Assembly (NCBI GenBank): GCA_019639235.1
Contig: JAHBSG010000007.1
Span: 1-64,000 of the forward strand
Reading direction: 5' to 3'
Source: Acidobacteriota bacterium
GTDB lineage: Bacteria > Acidobacteriota > Blastocatellia > Pyrinomonadales > Pyrinomonadaceae
DNA: 64,000 nucleotides
This document shows, in pieces, positions 40,064 through 44,160 of the stretch. The stretch's first letter is position 1. The number at the start of each line of letters is the position of its first letter. The notes beneath the pieces were generated by a model, which saw only the letters and a list, made by a program, of their open reading frames with translations, did no database searches and was not told the DNA's origin. A program made the translations under genes and the position numbers.

Positions 40064-40584
40064 ATTCGAATTACCTCAACAAATAGCTTAGAAATGTTCC
40101 TACCACGTCAGCAAAATGTGATAACTAACCGATTGCCCGGCTCCGTAGTAGCCAAATATTTATAGAAATGAGGCCATTAGGATGACCTACAGCCCCATAG
40201 GGGCGTCACGATCGGTCATGAACGATCTAAATGTCGCTCCTAACGGAGCTTAGTTTTAATGGTGGTCACGATTCTATAAACATCACGCTCCTAGCGAAGC
40301 TGCGGTCCCGGATCGATTTCATAAACGGATTCCTTCGCTCGCCGCATACTAACAGACACGCACCGCATTATCAACTACACGCGGTGCGTGTATTATACTA
40401 TGCAATGCGTAAATAATATTACGCAATGCGTGTAACATAACATACGATGCATGCAATATAGTATGCGACGCGTGTATAATACTACGCGACGCGTGTCTTA
40501 TAACATGCGGTGCGTGTAAAGCAACACGCAGTGCGTGCGTGAGAACACGCAGCAAATGTTCGGGATATTTTCTTTAACGGAAGG
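40064..40584. other. 521-bp region without ordinary genes, rich in palindromes
   Basis: Hairpins lie at 40192-40202 (CCCC-ATA-GGGG), 40236-40249 (GCTCC-N4-GGAGC) and a similar GCTCCTAGCGAAGC at 40288-40301, typical of dispersed repeats. Then a 21-bp tandem array fills about 40368-40560. No rRNA, tRNA or gene is seen apart from a 68-residue leftward frame that simply translates the array. Confidence 0.6.
40368..40560. repeat. 21-bp tandem array whose units are short palindromes
   Basis: About eight to nine units of 21 bp, for example AACACGCAGTGCGTGCG..., ACTACGCGACGCGTGT... and ATTACGCAATGCGTGT.... Each centres on an 11-13 bp palindrome (ACGCG-A-CGCGT, ACGCA-A-TGCGT, CACGCA-G-TGCGTG), with paired changes that keep the symmetry. 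Leftward translation gives a heptad-like repeat (IIHASHT, ILHASYV, MLHALRN). Confidence 0.85.
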
Positions 40585-40932
40585 CTACTTTATTAACTCG
40601 AGGGCCTTTTCTATCGGGCGGGCGATGATCGCTCGGTCGCCGGCGACGACTATCGGGCGATTGAGAAGCCCCGGATTCGCGACGATCGCGGCGATTATCT
40701 CGTCCTCGGGCGTTTCGGGCGTGAATCCGCGTTCCTTAAATTCTTTCTCCTTCGTCCGCAGCAGCCCAAATGCCGGTATCTGCAGCTTCCCGAGCAGCAC
40801 TTTCACATCCGCCGCCGTCAGCCGCTCCCTAAAATAATCAACCTGCTCAAACCGAACGCCATTCTCCCGGAACAGCCCCGCCAAATTGCGACAAGTCGTT
40901 CAAGTAGGCTTTTCGTAGATGGTGATCTTCAT
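40585..40932 (-). CDS. ArsC/Spx-like thioredoxin-fold protein with in-frame TGA: candidate selenoprotein
   Basis: Reading from ATG at 40932 gives MKITIYEKPT-TGA-TTCRNLAGLFRENG, continuing to 115 residues with TGA at codon 11. In the ArsC/Spx-like family this position is the first Cys of the CxxC in KPTCTTCR, so TGA reads as selenocysteine (U11-x-x-C14). The rest matches the family: LLRTKEKEFKERG and NRPIVVAGDRAIIARPIEKALELI. Ordinary gene finding would start at Met18 of the open part (40884) and lose the active site. A hairpin is possible downstream of the TGA. Pseudogenisation is the alternative, but the rest is intact and the TGA is conserved in a second copy. Confidence 0.72.
40861..40887 (-). 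promoter_or_regulatory. Candidate bacterial SECIS hairpin after the TGA
   Basis: Beginning 12 nt after the TGA (40900-40902), AATTTGGCGG and CCGGGAGAAT can pair (CGG/CCG top, then two GG mismatches, TTT/AGA and an outer A-T) around the loop GGCTGTT. The apical loop begins 22 nt after the TGA, within the range usual for bSECIS, and starts with G. The stem is weak, so this is only a candidate. The same sequence is present in the copy at 41786-41812. Confidence 0.4.
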
Positions 40933-40984: not shown

Positions 40985-41701
40985 CTATTTCAAGTAGCGG
41001 CCGAGAGAAACATAACGGACCTCTTTCGACGCTTTCAACTCTTTCCGGAGCCAATATGTGTGTTCGACGCCGACCAGGACAAGAATCCGCTTGCCCGGGT
41101 GCTTTTTCGCGGCGGCATGGATCTGCTTGAGAAAGTGCGAGTTCCAGCCGTTCCAAGCGGCTTCTTCTTTCGGTCCGAAAAGAGCATTTTGAAACTCATG
41201 CTTTACCTCGAACAATGCATCGGTCTCGGGAGAATTGACGGCCGCGGCCGACGTCCACTTTGCAAAAAGGTATTCATAAAGTTGGTTGGAATAAACCGAA
41301 AAAGCCTCGCTCTTTTGAGGGGCCTTTTCACGCAACTCGGTATTCGACTCGCGGAGCATTCCAACAAGCCTTGAGTATTCCGGTTCTGCCGGCTCCATCG
41401 GGACGGCCGAATAGCCGTGCTTTTCCATCAGCGAGAAGACGCTTCGCTGATACTCCTGTTTCGTCTTCTGTTCGGTTCTGTTCTCCAGAGCATCGGGCGT
41501 TAACTCGACAGCGAGAACATCTGGCTTGATAGTTTCGATGATCCGAGAAAGATCGGCGAATGAATAACCCCGCGTCGTTTCGTGGAACTGATGAAGCGTG
41601 CCCAAAACGAGTACCTCTGATTTGCCTTTAGCAAACGAGGAAGCCGGAGCTCCGACGATCAAAACAACGAAAAGAGATAAAACAACTAAATATCTGTTCA
41701 T
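40985..41701 (-). CDS. TraB/TIKI-like secreted protein (DUF5694-like)
   Basis: The 238-residue protein has a signal peptide (MNRYLVVLSLFVVLIVGAP, cleaved near SSFA). The mature part has the paired Gly-x-x-His/Glu motifs of the TraB/TIKI/EreA-like fold: LGTLHQFHE (about 33-41), VLAVELTPDALENR and LVLVGVEHTYWLRKEL near the end. Related proteins include metalloproteases and erythromycin esterase-like enzymes. It lies between the two TGA-containing ArsC-like sequences and its start directly follows the stop of the second one. Confidence 0.8.
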   Translation of the reverse strand: MNRYLVVLSLFVVLIVGAPASSFAKGKSEVLVLGTLHQFHETTRGYSFADLSRIIETIKPDVLAVELTPDALENRTEQKTKQEYQRSVFSLMEKHGYSAVPMEPAEPEYSRLVGMLRESNTELREKAPQKSEAFSVYSNQLYEYLFAKWTSAAAVNSPETDALFEVKHEFQNALFGPKEEAAWNGWNSHFLKQIHAAAKKHPGKRILVLVGVEHTYWLRKELKASKEVRYVSLGRYLK

Positions 41702-41869
41702 TTAAGTGCGATCTCCAAGCTGATGTGTTCCAAGGTTCCATCGCCGAAAGTCAGAACATTGAAACCTCTCCGAAAACTCAACGCCATTCTCCCGGAACAG
41801 CCCCGCCAAATTGCGACAAGTCGTTCAAGTAGGCTTTTCGTAGATAACGATCTTTTCGTTGGTGTTCAT
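41702..41869 (-). pseudogene. Truncated second copy of the ArsC-like candidate selenoprotein
   Basis: ATG at 41869 overlaps the TGA of the PIN gene. Reading through the TGA at 41825-41827 gives MNTNEKIVIYEKPT-U-TTCRNLAGLFRENGVEF, the same start as the gene at 40585, then a diverged tail to TAA at 41702. The 66 bp 41780-41845 are identical to 40855-40920, including the TGA and 45 nt after it. The remaining two thirds of the ArsC-like fold are missing. It could be a decayed duplicate or a short peptide. Confidence 0.65.
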
Positions 41870-42324
41870 TGTTCTTCTTCACCCGCCAGAATTAGAGCTT
41901 CTTCTCGGAGCGCTCGGCTGATCCGAAAGCTGTTCCGCTCAAGCTCCCCGATGAAGGGCGCTACGAGCTCAATGATGCCCGCCCTTTTTGCTCGGACAAG
42001 GATGCCCAATGTCCCGACGACCCTGAGCCCCATTGCTTCGGCAACCGACCTCGCCTGCTTATCGTCGGTTACAAGCTGACCATCCATCTGAACCGCAAGC
42101 GCAATTGCTTCGGCCTCTCCTTTTCCGAGCGTAAGCCGCAACGCATTGCAAAGATGAGGCGAGCTCAGCGGCTCAACCTTCATCCAACTAAGCTGCCGCC
42201 CGAACTCCGCAACCACGGCAATAGGAACGACGATTTCGCCATAAAGTTTAGGAAGGAGATCAAGGTGCCCGATGCGTTCGAAGCCGATCAGACAAGTGCT
42301 GTCAAAGACGATCGTCAAACTCAC
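41866..42324 (-). CDS. PIN-domain (DUF3368) putative toxin
   Basis: The 152-residue protein is a PIN-like RNase fold: TIVFDSTCLIGFERIG (Asp8), VVAEFGRQL (Glu40), GKGEAEAIALA and LVTDDKQARSVAEAMGL provide the acidic active-site cluster. Such DUF3368 proteins pair with UPF0175 antitoxins. It overlaps the UPF0175 gene by 1 bp, and its stop overlaps the start of the truncated ArsC-like copy. Confidence 0.87.
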   Translation of the reverse strand: MSLTIVFDSTCLIGFERIGHLDLLPKLYGEIVVPIAVVAEFGRQLSWMKVEPLSSPHLCNALRLTLGKGEAEAIALAVQMDGQLVTDDKQARSVAEAMGLRVVGTLGILVRAKRAGIIELVAPFIGELERNSFRISRALREEALILAGEEEQ

Positions 42325-42548
42325 TATTCCAGTTCCTTTCTCAGGTCTTCCGGGGAATAATTGATAACCGGCACGCCGTGATGCCCGAGAACCTCGATGA
42401 ACGCCCGCTTGGAATAGTTTGCGATCTCGGCGGCTTTGCCGAGCGAGACTCGGCCCGTTTCGAAGAGCTTTATCGCAAGCAGCGTCTGCGTCTCGTCCTT
42501 CGTTATGTTCGGCGGAAGATTTAGCGTTAGTTCGACCGTGTTCTGCAT
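42324..42548 (-). CDS. UPF0175-family putative antitoxin
   Basis: The 74-residue product (start at MQNTVELTLNL, with AGGTG about 6 bp upstream) has a ribbon-helix-helix-like UPF0175 fold: DETQTLLAIKLFETGRVSLGKAAEIANYSKRAFIEVLG. It precedes the PIN gene, the usual antitoxin-first order. The open frame goes on to 42614 without added conserved sequence. Confidence 0.85.
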   Translation of the reverse strand: MQNTVELTLNLPPNITKDETQTLLAIKLFETGRVSLGKAAEIANYSKRAFIEVLGHHGVPVINYSPEDLRKELE

Positions 42549-42643
42549 TCGATTCACCTGAGTTCGAAGTTTAGCATCAAGAGCGTCGGAATTAAACAGT
42601 TTTTGCCTTCCCAAGTCTCCTGGTGGAAGCGACTAGTGACGAT

Positions 42644-43611: not shown

Positions 43612-44160
43612 TCATCTTTGTTTCCAGTCGATCTTTCTAATGTCGACCTCGATCGGCTCAGGATCGAGCAATCCTTTTCTCAGCCAATACCTGGCACTCG
43701 AACATCGGTAGCTCTCGGGCGTCTCGGACAAACCTGCTTCGACGGGATTGTTGTGAATATACCGCACTTTTTGCATCAGCATCGATTCGCTTGTGATCAG
43801 AAATTTGTCCGAATGATGCTCCCACAGAGAATATTTGTAATCGGCATCCTTCGTTTGCAGCCGCAGTTTATTGAGCGATTCCTCAGGCCCGTGGGTTTTC
43901 AAATGATCGATGATCCGCCGAGCGGTTATCCCATTCAAATAACGTAGCGAGTCCGAAGGCGTGCGTGCTCCGTCGGTAACGATGTGGAAATGCTCGGGCA
44001 TGATGACATAAGCGAAAAACAACATCCCCGAAGACCGGCGAGCCTCATTCAAGGCATCGCACAGCAACTCTTTAAATTTCTCGGTCCGGAATACTTTCAG
44101 GCGATTATGAGTCACCGAAGTGAAGAAATAAAACGGAGTGTCGAATGTCGGTCTGGCCAT
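43612..44160 (-). CDS. REP-associated tyrosine transposase (RAYT, IS200-like)
   Basis: The 182-residue protein is a Y1-type HUH transposase: HxH motif at residues 57-59 (YVIMPEHFHIV) and the nucleophile Tyr134 in YIHNNPVEAGL. RAYTs are single-copy, domesticated relatives of IS200/IS605 that bind REP palindromes. GGAGGCTATGCCTCC lies just after its stop (43597-43611), and GCATAGCCTCC just before its start (44171-44181). Three REP-like palindromes lie nearby, making an IS-like REP cluster. Confidence 0.92.
   Translation of the reverse strand: MARPTFDTPFYFFTSVTHNRLKVFRTEKFKELLCDALNEARRSSGMLFFAYVIMPEHFHIVTDGARTPSDSLRYLNGITARRIIDHLKTHGPEESLNKLRLQTKDADYKYSLWEHHSDKFLITSESMLMQKVRYIHNNPVEAGLSETPESYRCSSARYWLRKGLLDPEPIEVDIRKIDWKQR

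Follow-up and report, generated by a model that had tools for sequence, protein, structure and literature searches.

The arsC-like gene and its surroundings

The window, by which we mean the whole 64,000-nt stretch of DNA that was analyzed, carries on its minus strand an arsC-like gene whose frame contains a TGA codon, and a truncated copy of that gene just upstream. The features are listed below, each with the evidence on which it rests.

40585..40932, minus strand: predicted ArsC-like selenoprotein gene, 115 residues, with U11-T-T-C14 (translation with TGA as U, PF03960, TIGR00014, 96 aligned rows)
40900..40902, minus strand: TGA codon 11, predicted selenocysteine (Sec), at the position of the ArsC catalytic Cys (translation and alignments)
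40891..40893, minus strand: codon of Cys14, which completes the UxxC pair (Cys in all 96 rows)
40585..40884, minus strand: 99-aa open reading frame (ORF) from TTG, the expected gene call, without strand 1 and the UxxC pair (table 11 ORF list)
40858..40876, minus strand: candidate bacterial SECIS (bSECIS) hairpin, 7 bp, 5-nt loop CGGGA, 30 nt from TGA to loop (conservation, controls, fold of 40902-40850)
40985..41701, minus strand: DUF5694 gene, flanked by the truncated copy on one side and the intact gene on the other (Pfam; genus search)
41702..41869, minus strand: truncated 5′ copy of the gene, 55 codons, which repeats the TGA (at 41827-41825) and the hairpin (at 41801-41783) (repeat and alignment)

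Read from the ATG at 40932, the frame is MKITIYEKPT-TGA-TTCRNLAGLF... and continues to a stop at 40585, giving 115 residues with the TGA counted as one. The product matched PF03960 (ArsC) with 46.3 bits over residues 6-111 and TIGR00014 with 94.8 bits over residues 3-113. When the product was aligned with arsenate reductases of solved structure, the TGA fell on their catalytic Cys. Judged from its sequence, the 115-residue frame encodes a complete ArsC fold with an in-frame TGA at codon 11. The preliminary description had placed a TGA at the active-site Cys of an ArsC-like frame, and this was confirmed, with codon 11 at 40902-40900 in a UTTC motif. It had also predicted that gene calling would lose the active site. 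Indeed, under table 11 the ORF listed for this frame is a 99-aa protein starting at TTG 40884, and 99-aa entries that lack the active site exist in protein databases (among them P0004 and P0010, which bear the name arsenate reductase).

The truncated copy and the intact gene share a direct repeat (41774-41854 and 40849-40929; 81 nt, 94% identical, with an identical core). The truncated copy overlaps the stop of a DUF3368 gene, presumably of the PIN type, and abuts the start of the DUF5694 gene. Within the genus, DUF5694 was found in this genome and in G076, out of 41, and the gene looks like a strain-private insertion between the remnant and the intact gene. In G065, a close relative, the DUF3368 gene upstream runs directly into a single intact arsC, which matches the 5′ part of the truncated copy (96% over 127 nt). 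The simplest reading is that a segment with DUF5694 and a second arsC 5′ end arrived beside the original gene and left the 5′ remnant of the original behind. Several other features were seen nearby. UPF0175 and DUF3368 genes lie side by side at 41866-42614 (minus strand), an arrangement known from toxin-antitoxin pairs. A protein with a weak match to Y1 (IS200-like) transposases is encoded at 43612-44160 (minus strand), and about 6.6 units of a 21-bp repeat (GCGATGCGTGTATTATAATAT) lie just downstream of the gene at 40381-40518, where a 34-nt inverted pair overlaps the array.

Codon 11 across the family and the Sec machinery

Searches with the query P0001 covered 119 family genomes, 95 of which gave a match at an E value of 1e-8 or lower. 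Including the window's own gene, 98 family loci were analyzed; 96 align over codon 11, the other two being fragments that lack it, and 93 of the 96 rows are full length (57 TGA and 36 Cys). Codon 11 was TGA in 59 rows, TGC in 24, and TGT in 13, with no other codon found. With the remaining 37 rows all carrying TGT or TGC, the TGA at this position is more than chance, which is the outcome of the homologue alignment that had been proposed. It also means that the active site is likely lost from standard gene calls throughout the family. Named relatives at 80 to 93% identity come from metagenome-assembled genomes labeled Acidobacteria or Pyrinomonadaceae bacterium (L055 to L058), and all seven relatives found in other phyla (L060 to L066) have a Cys codon in a CxxS rather than a CxxC motif.

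Two other explanations of the TGA were weighed. First, the TGA might be an ordinary nonsense change in a decaying gene. The truncated copy just upstream fits such a course, as do the partial second copies in two relatives (G060:C15:129773-130107 and G081:C38:22214-22423). However, a TGA was present in 59 of 96 rows with only Cys codons in the rest, amino acid selection was evident on both sides of it, and 57 of the 59 TGA rows had an otherwise open frame of 85 codons or more. The preliminary description had named a TGA confined to this strain, with other decay, as one outcome that would speak against a selenoprotein. The TGA occurs well beyond this strain, amino acid selection is strong on both its sides, and the family-wide conservation of codon 11 refutes decay, leaving it with hardly any probability. 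Second, the true product might be the 99-aa protein from TTG 40884, the upstream frame being untranslated, as database gene calls report. Over the nine codons ahead of the TGA in the 57 TGA genes, amino acids are conserved even though synonymous sites approach saturation (pN 0.095 versus pS 0.741), from which it follows that the part upstream of the TGA is selected as protein. Furthermore, upstream start codons are present in the Cys-type relatives, and the short product would lack strand 1 and the active site. This alternative is therefore very improbable. A genome-wide reassignment of TGA was also rejected since 28 of the 93 full-length rows terminate their own gene at TGA.

Exchanges between Sec and Cys appear to have been frequent. 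The family tree required at least 15 Sec/Cys changes (counted without direction), of which 6 were forced by well-supported branches; the trees were built on 116 to 117 columns, and many forks are weakly resolved. One genome, G098, has two copies of the gene (L101 and L123), one with TGA and the other with TGC.

The genome that carries the gene (3.84 Mb in 46 contigs, 98% complete) was examined for the Sec insertion machinery, as the preliminary description had suggested, and all four components were present: selA (542 bits), selB (372 bits against a cut-off of 242), selD (359 bits, above its cut-off, with one in-frame TGA), and tRNA-Sec (67 bits, anticodon tca, by Infernal and ARAGORN). For selB, tRNA-Sec, and selD, only matches above the cut-off were counted because the control genomes gave low-score matches (14 of 14). 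A second RF01852 match (L010), barely above the cut-off at 48.4 bits, was called tRNA-Ser by ARAGORN and was not counted. The selD gene (L018, about 1492-2424) itself looks like a selenoprotein gene: by eye, its TGA was placed close to the N terminus (...SCAG-TGA-VAKLAP...), and a 9-bp hairpin with the loop GTT follows.

The selA gene was then compared with codon 11 across the same 119 family genomes. All 59 TGA rows were in genomes with a selA match (in G094, a 70-bit fragment only), and 8 of the 37 Cys rows were in genomes without selA (no match or a background of about 20 bits), so that all eight selA-less genomes bearing the gene have Cys. This association (Fisher P = 2.9e-4, with kinship ignored) is consistent with decoding as Sec but falls short of independent proof because the eight genomes represent about two clades and a kinship-aware pairs test of Sec against selA gave no significance. 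In other families of the phylum, selA was found in 17 of 18 TGA genomes and in 4 of 7 Cys genomes; no selA was found in the remaining TGA-bearing genome, G218, which is 91% complete.

The candidate recoding signal and its position

The candidate hairpin lies downstream of the TGA. With the T of the TGA as position 0, the pairs run from 26-44 to 32-38 and enclose the loop at 33-37. In the published bSECIS model, a loop of 3 to 9 nt with a G in its first two positions (often followed by G or U) sits on a stem of 4 to 16 bp at 16 to 37 nt from the TGA, with a folding energy of at most -7.5 kcal/mol (PMC13188914). The present hairpin, with its 5-nt loop CGGGA, 7 bp, and 30-nt distance, lies within this geometry. 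It forms in the predicted fold of 40902-40850 (53 nt), at -14.4 kcal/mol with a z of -0.09 against shuffles, and the energy depends on the piece folded (-14.4 kcal/mol for 53 nt, -9.9 for 44 nt, and -6.8 for 27 nt, compared to the model threshold of -7.5). The preliminary description had pointed to 40861-40900 for such an element. A bSECIS-type hairpin with synonymous covariation is present, but the stretch was slightly too short, the hairpin being 40876-40858; when 40899-40861 was folded alone, the hairpin was absent and 197 of 200 shuffles folded equally well. Because the raw folding energy is unexceptional, the evidence was taken from synonymous resampling and covariation instead.

Pairing was compared with a null in which synonymous codons were redrawn from those that the genes themselves use (2,000 draws unless stated otherwise). 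Several trends were apparent. First, all seven pairs were formed in 41 of the 57 TGA genes compared to 5.1 ± 2.1 expected (highest, 14 in 2,000 resamplings), and in 4 of the 36 Cys genes compared to 2.0 ± 1.3 expected (highest, 7). After dereplication, 16 of 29 TGA genes still formed all seven pairs compared to 2.1 expected (highest, 8 in 3,000). Cell by cell, the Cys genes also paired above the null (196 of 252; z, 5.2). Second, the codons at the top of the hairpin covary in the 57 TGA genes, the combinations being TTT/GAA in 22, CTC/GAG in 20, TTC/GAG in 11, and others in 4. Third, when the register was slid as a control, the true register had 375 of 399 cells paired (z, 11.9), and the next best, +3, was also above the null (261 of 399; z, 5.0) but far below the true one. 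Fourth, pS in hairpin codons 19 to 25 was 0.486 in the TGA genes compared to 0.752 in the Cys genes; codons 26 to 45 of the TGA genes gave 0.798. Finally, the loop may leave its mark on the protein. Of the 57 TGA genes, 42 have the loop CGTGA and 11 have CGGGA, and residue 22, which the loop encodes, is Arg in 57 of 57 TGA genes versus 15 of 36 Cys genes. The Arg22 codons of the TGA genes were CGT in 43, CGG in 13, and CGC in 1, whereas further on in the 93 genes CGC was the commonest Arg codon (276 of 648). This preference fits the early loop G, often with G or U after it, of the bSECIS model.

Together with the Sec machinery and a codon 11 that is only ever TGA or Cys, the bSECIS-type hairpin strongly supports the selenoprotein reading put forward in the preliminary description, and the in-frame TGA is almost certainly decoded as selenocysteine. 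The overall best explanation, to which we assign a probability of roughly 0.93 on these comparative data, is that the locus encodes an ArsC-fold oxidoreductase whose TGA codon 11 is translated as Sec by the genome's own SelA/B/C/D. SelB carrying Sec-tRNA would bind the mRNA hairpin at 40876-40858 and deliver Sec to the UGA.

The gene also occurs elsewhere in the phylum. In an even draw of 396 phylum genomes, 60 had a match at an E value of 1e-12 or lower, 34 of them outside the family; 18 of these had a single TGA within the matched region, and the other 16 had no stop. The 18 deeper TGA loci (L154 to L171) are thus all the TGA matches outside the family in the draw and not a blind sample. In each, the TGA is at codon 11, with a UxxC motif in 17 and UxxS in one (L165), and the seven stop-free matches examined out of 16 each have a Cys codon. 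The family's 30-nt hairpin was complete in none of the 18. Instead, a second hairpin, with pairs from 13-30 to 19-24 and a loop, mostly GGTC, located 17 nt after the TGA, was complete in 11 of 18 compared to 0.5 expected (highest, 4 in 2,000). It was complete in none of the family's 57 TGA genes, 41 of which have their own hairpin, but in 4 of the 36 family Cys genes compared to 0.6 expected (highest, 4 in 2,000). In a tree that combined the deeper loci with every other row of the family (47 of 93), the 11 second-hairpin genes all fell inside one group of 12 rows with a support of 94. The other 7 deeper TGA genes lack the full second hairpin, one by a single pair. In the remaining six (L154, L155, L161, L165, L168, and L171), at most 4 of the 7 second-hairpin pairs are present, and the first hairpin is incomplete too. 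Within a single gene family, the recoding signal thus seems to occupy two different positions, depending on the sister lineage.

Predicted function and relation to known ArsC proteins

The structure predicted from P0001 and 34 homologues had a mean pLDDT of 83.7 and a pTM of 0.71. By E value, its best matches among solved structures were the arsenate reductases 3rdw and 3f0i (TM 0.87-0.90), followed by E. coli ArsC chains (TM 0.84-0.86) and Spx chains (TM 0.74-0.86). Arg59, Arg92, and Arg105 align with three Arg of the arsenate reductases 2mu0, 3rdw, and 3f0i, and all three are kept together in 92 of the 93 full-length rows. We take the position of codon 11 to be that of the nucleophile and these Arg to be those that hold the substrate in arsenate reductases. 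The Arg triad favors an ArsC-type oxyanion pocket, and the UxxC pair suggests a self-resolving selenol/thiol chemistry. The gene product is therefore quite probably an ArsC-like selenol/thiol reductase. In the proposed cycle, the Sec11 selenolate would attack a substrate bound by Arg59, Arg92, and Arg105, which might be an oxyanion (arsenate, for instance), a disulfide, or a sulfenate; Cys14 would resolve the intermediate as an Se-S bond, which a thioredoxin-like reductant would then reopen.

Spx proteins likewise have an N-terminal CxxC, and a redox-sensing regulator of their kind, one that would bind RNA polymerase, was considered. The TM scores of Spx chains overlap those of E. coli ArsC chains, and the Spx/MgsR model TIGR01617 matched with 47.1 bits. 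However, this is below its cut-off of 75.05, both the ArsC model and the top ArsC structures give higher scores, and Arg59 aligns with Ser in the Spx chains 7f75 and 6ghb, although these have an Arg two residues on. A regulator of this type is accordingly improbable.

A further question is whether the protein is a Sec arsenate reductase that serves mainly to detoxify arsenic, with arsenate as the chief substrate in nature. The closest curated model is the glutaredoxin-type ArsC, the three Arg and the fold match those of arsenate reductases, and the genome has a gene for the arsenite exporter Acr3. However, this acr3 is followed by a gene for a low-molecular-weight (LMW)-phosphatase-type protein (L135, 1459-2965 on contig C23), on a different contig from the arsC-like gene. 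LMW-phosphatase-type proteins are a usual kind of arsenate reductase, and this one is likely a conventional arsenate reductase. In addition, although arsenate reductase genes often, but not always, lie in ars operons, no ars gene was found among 12 neighbors in the window, a subset of the window ORFs scanned by Pfam, which include a W/Y-type tRNA synthetase, DUF2237, DinB, ScpA, and ScpB; the relatives in other phyla have CxxS (7 of 7), not CxxC. (A clustering of neighbor ORFs across relatives was discarded because it was polluted by shadow frames.) With no ars neighbor and a separate acr3/LMW-phosphatase-type pair, arsenate detoxification may not be the main task of the gene, and it is doubtful that arsenate is the chief natural substrate given that the genome has a separate acr3-linked candidate reductase.

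These observations incline us, by a narrow balance, toward a wider picture. The gene would belong to a largely unannotated family of selenoenzymes across the Acidobacteriota, probably not devoted to arsenic detoxification, with SECIS elements at two sites (30 nt and 17 nt), which would mean that the signal moved or that Sec was gained more than once. The loop would dictate Arg22, a residue that would drift freely after a change from Sec to Cys. Acidobacteriota are abundant soil bacteria, and a redox enzyme of a whole family of them is being reported without its active site. Furthermore, many Sec/Cys exchanges are found between close relatives, in genomes with and without selA. This makes the family a good natural series in which to ask why Sec is kept or dropped, how SECIS elements originate and decay, and to what extent a protein is constrained by an RNA signal within its own gene.

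ArsC-like selenoproteins as such are not new, and the preliminary description was correct that they had been reported from marine surveys (PMC1088965, PMC2398784). ArsC selenoproteins with UxxS are known from the Sargasso Sea (PMC1088965), and both UxxS and UxxC forms are given in the GOS survey, where a table lists "Arsenate reductase 2" with UxxC (cd03032, 42 sequences) beside "ArsC 1" with UxxS (PMC2398784). Two ArsC-like selenoproteins are mentioned for Deltaproteobacteria in another report (PMC1794560), and COG1393 is tabulated with both UxxS and UxxC (PMC9312934). For Acidobacteriota, one tabulated genome had three known and no new selenoprotein genes (PMC12013277). No earlier report of an ArsC-like selenoprotein gene in this phylum surfaced among the papers listed from an open-licence library, although one may exist.

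The present protein resembles several known systems and differs from each. Like the Sargasso Sea and GOS proteins, it has an ArsC fold with Sec at the catalytic Cys and, as in part of the GOS set, a UxxC motif; those are marine reads, whereas this is a lineage of Acidobacteriota genomes, the comparison being one of published descriptions rather than of sequences. It shares with NF041106 (ArsC_rel_Se_1, ArsC family [seleno]protein) the ArsC relationship and the UxxC motif under which that family is tabulated in PMC13188914, but with 23.6 bits against a cut-off of 85 it is of another branch. Its best curated model is TIGR00014, which the same table gives with UxxS. It has the fold, catalytic position, and three Arg of the glutaredoxin-type arsenate reductases of TIGR00014 (2mu0, 3rdw, 3f0i, and 1jzw); however, the three aligned chains (2mu0, 3rdw, and 3f0i) have Cys in a CxxS motif in place of U/CxxC, and its 94.8 bits are below the curated cut-off of 106.05. 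The Spx/MgsR regulators share the fold and a CxxC at the equivalent place but lack an Arg at position 59 in the two aligned chains, and their curated cut-off is not reached here. What is new is thus an Acidobacteriota gene with an unusually rich comparative series.
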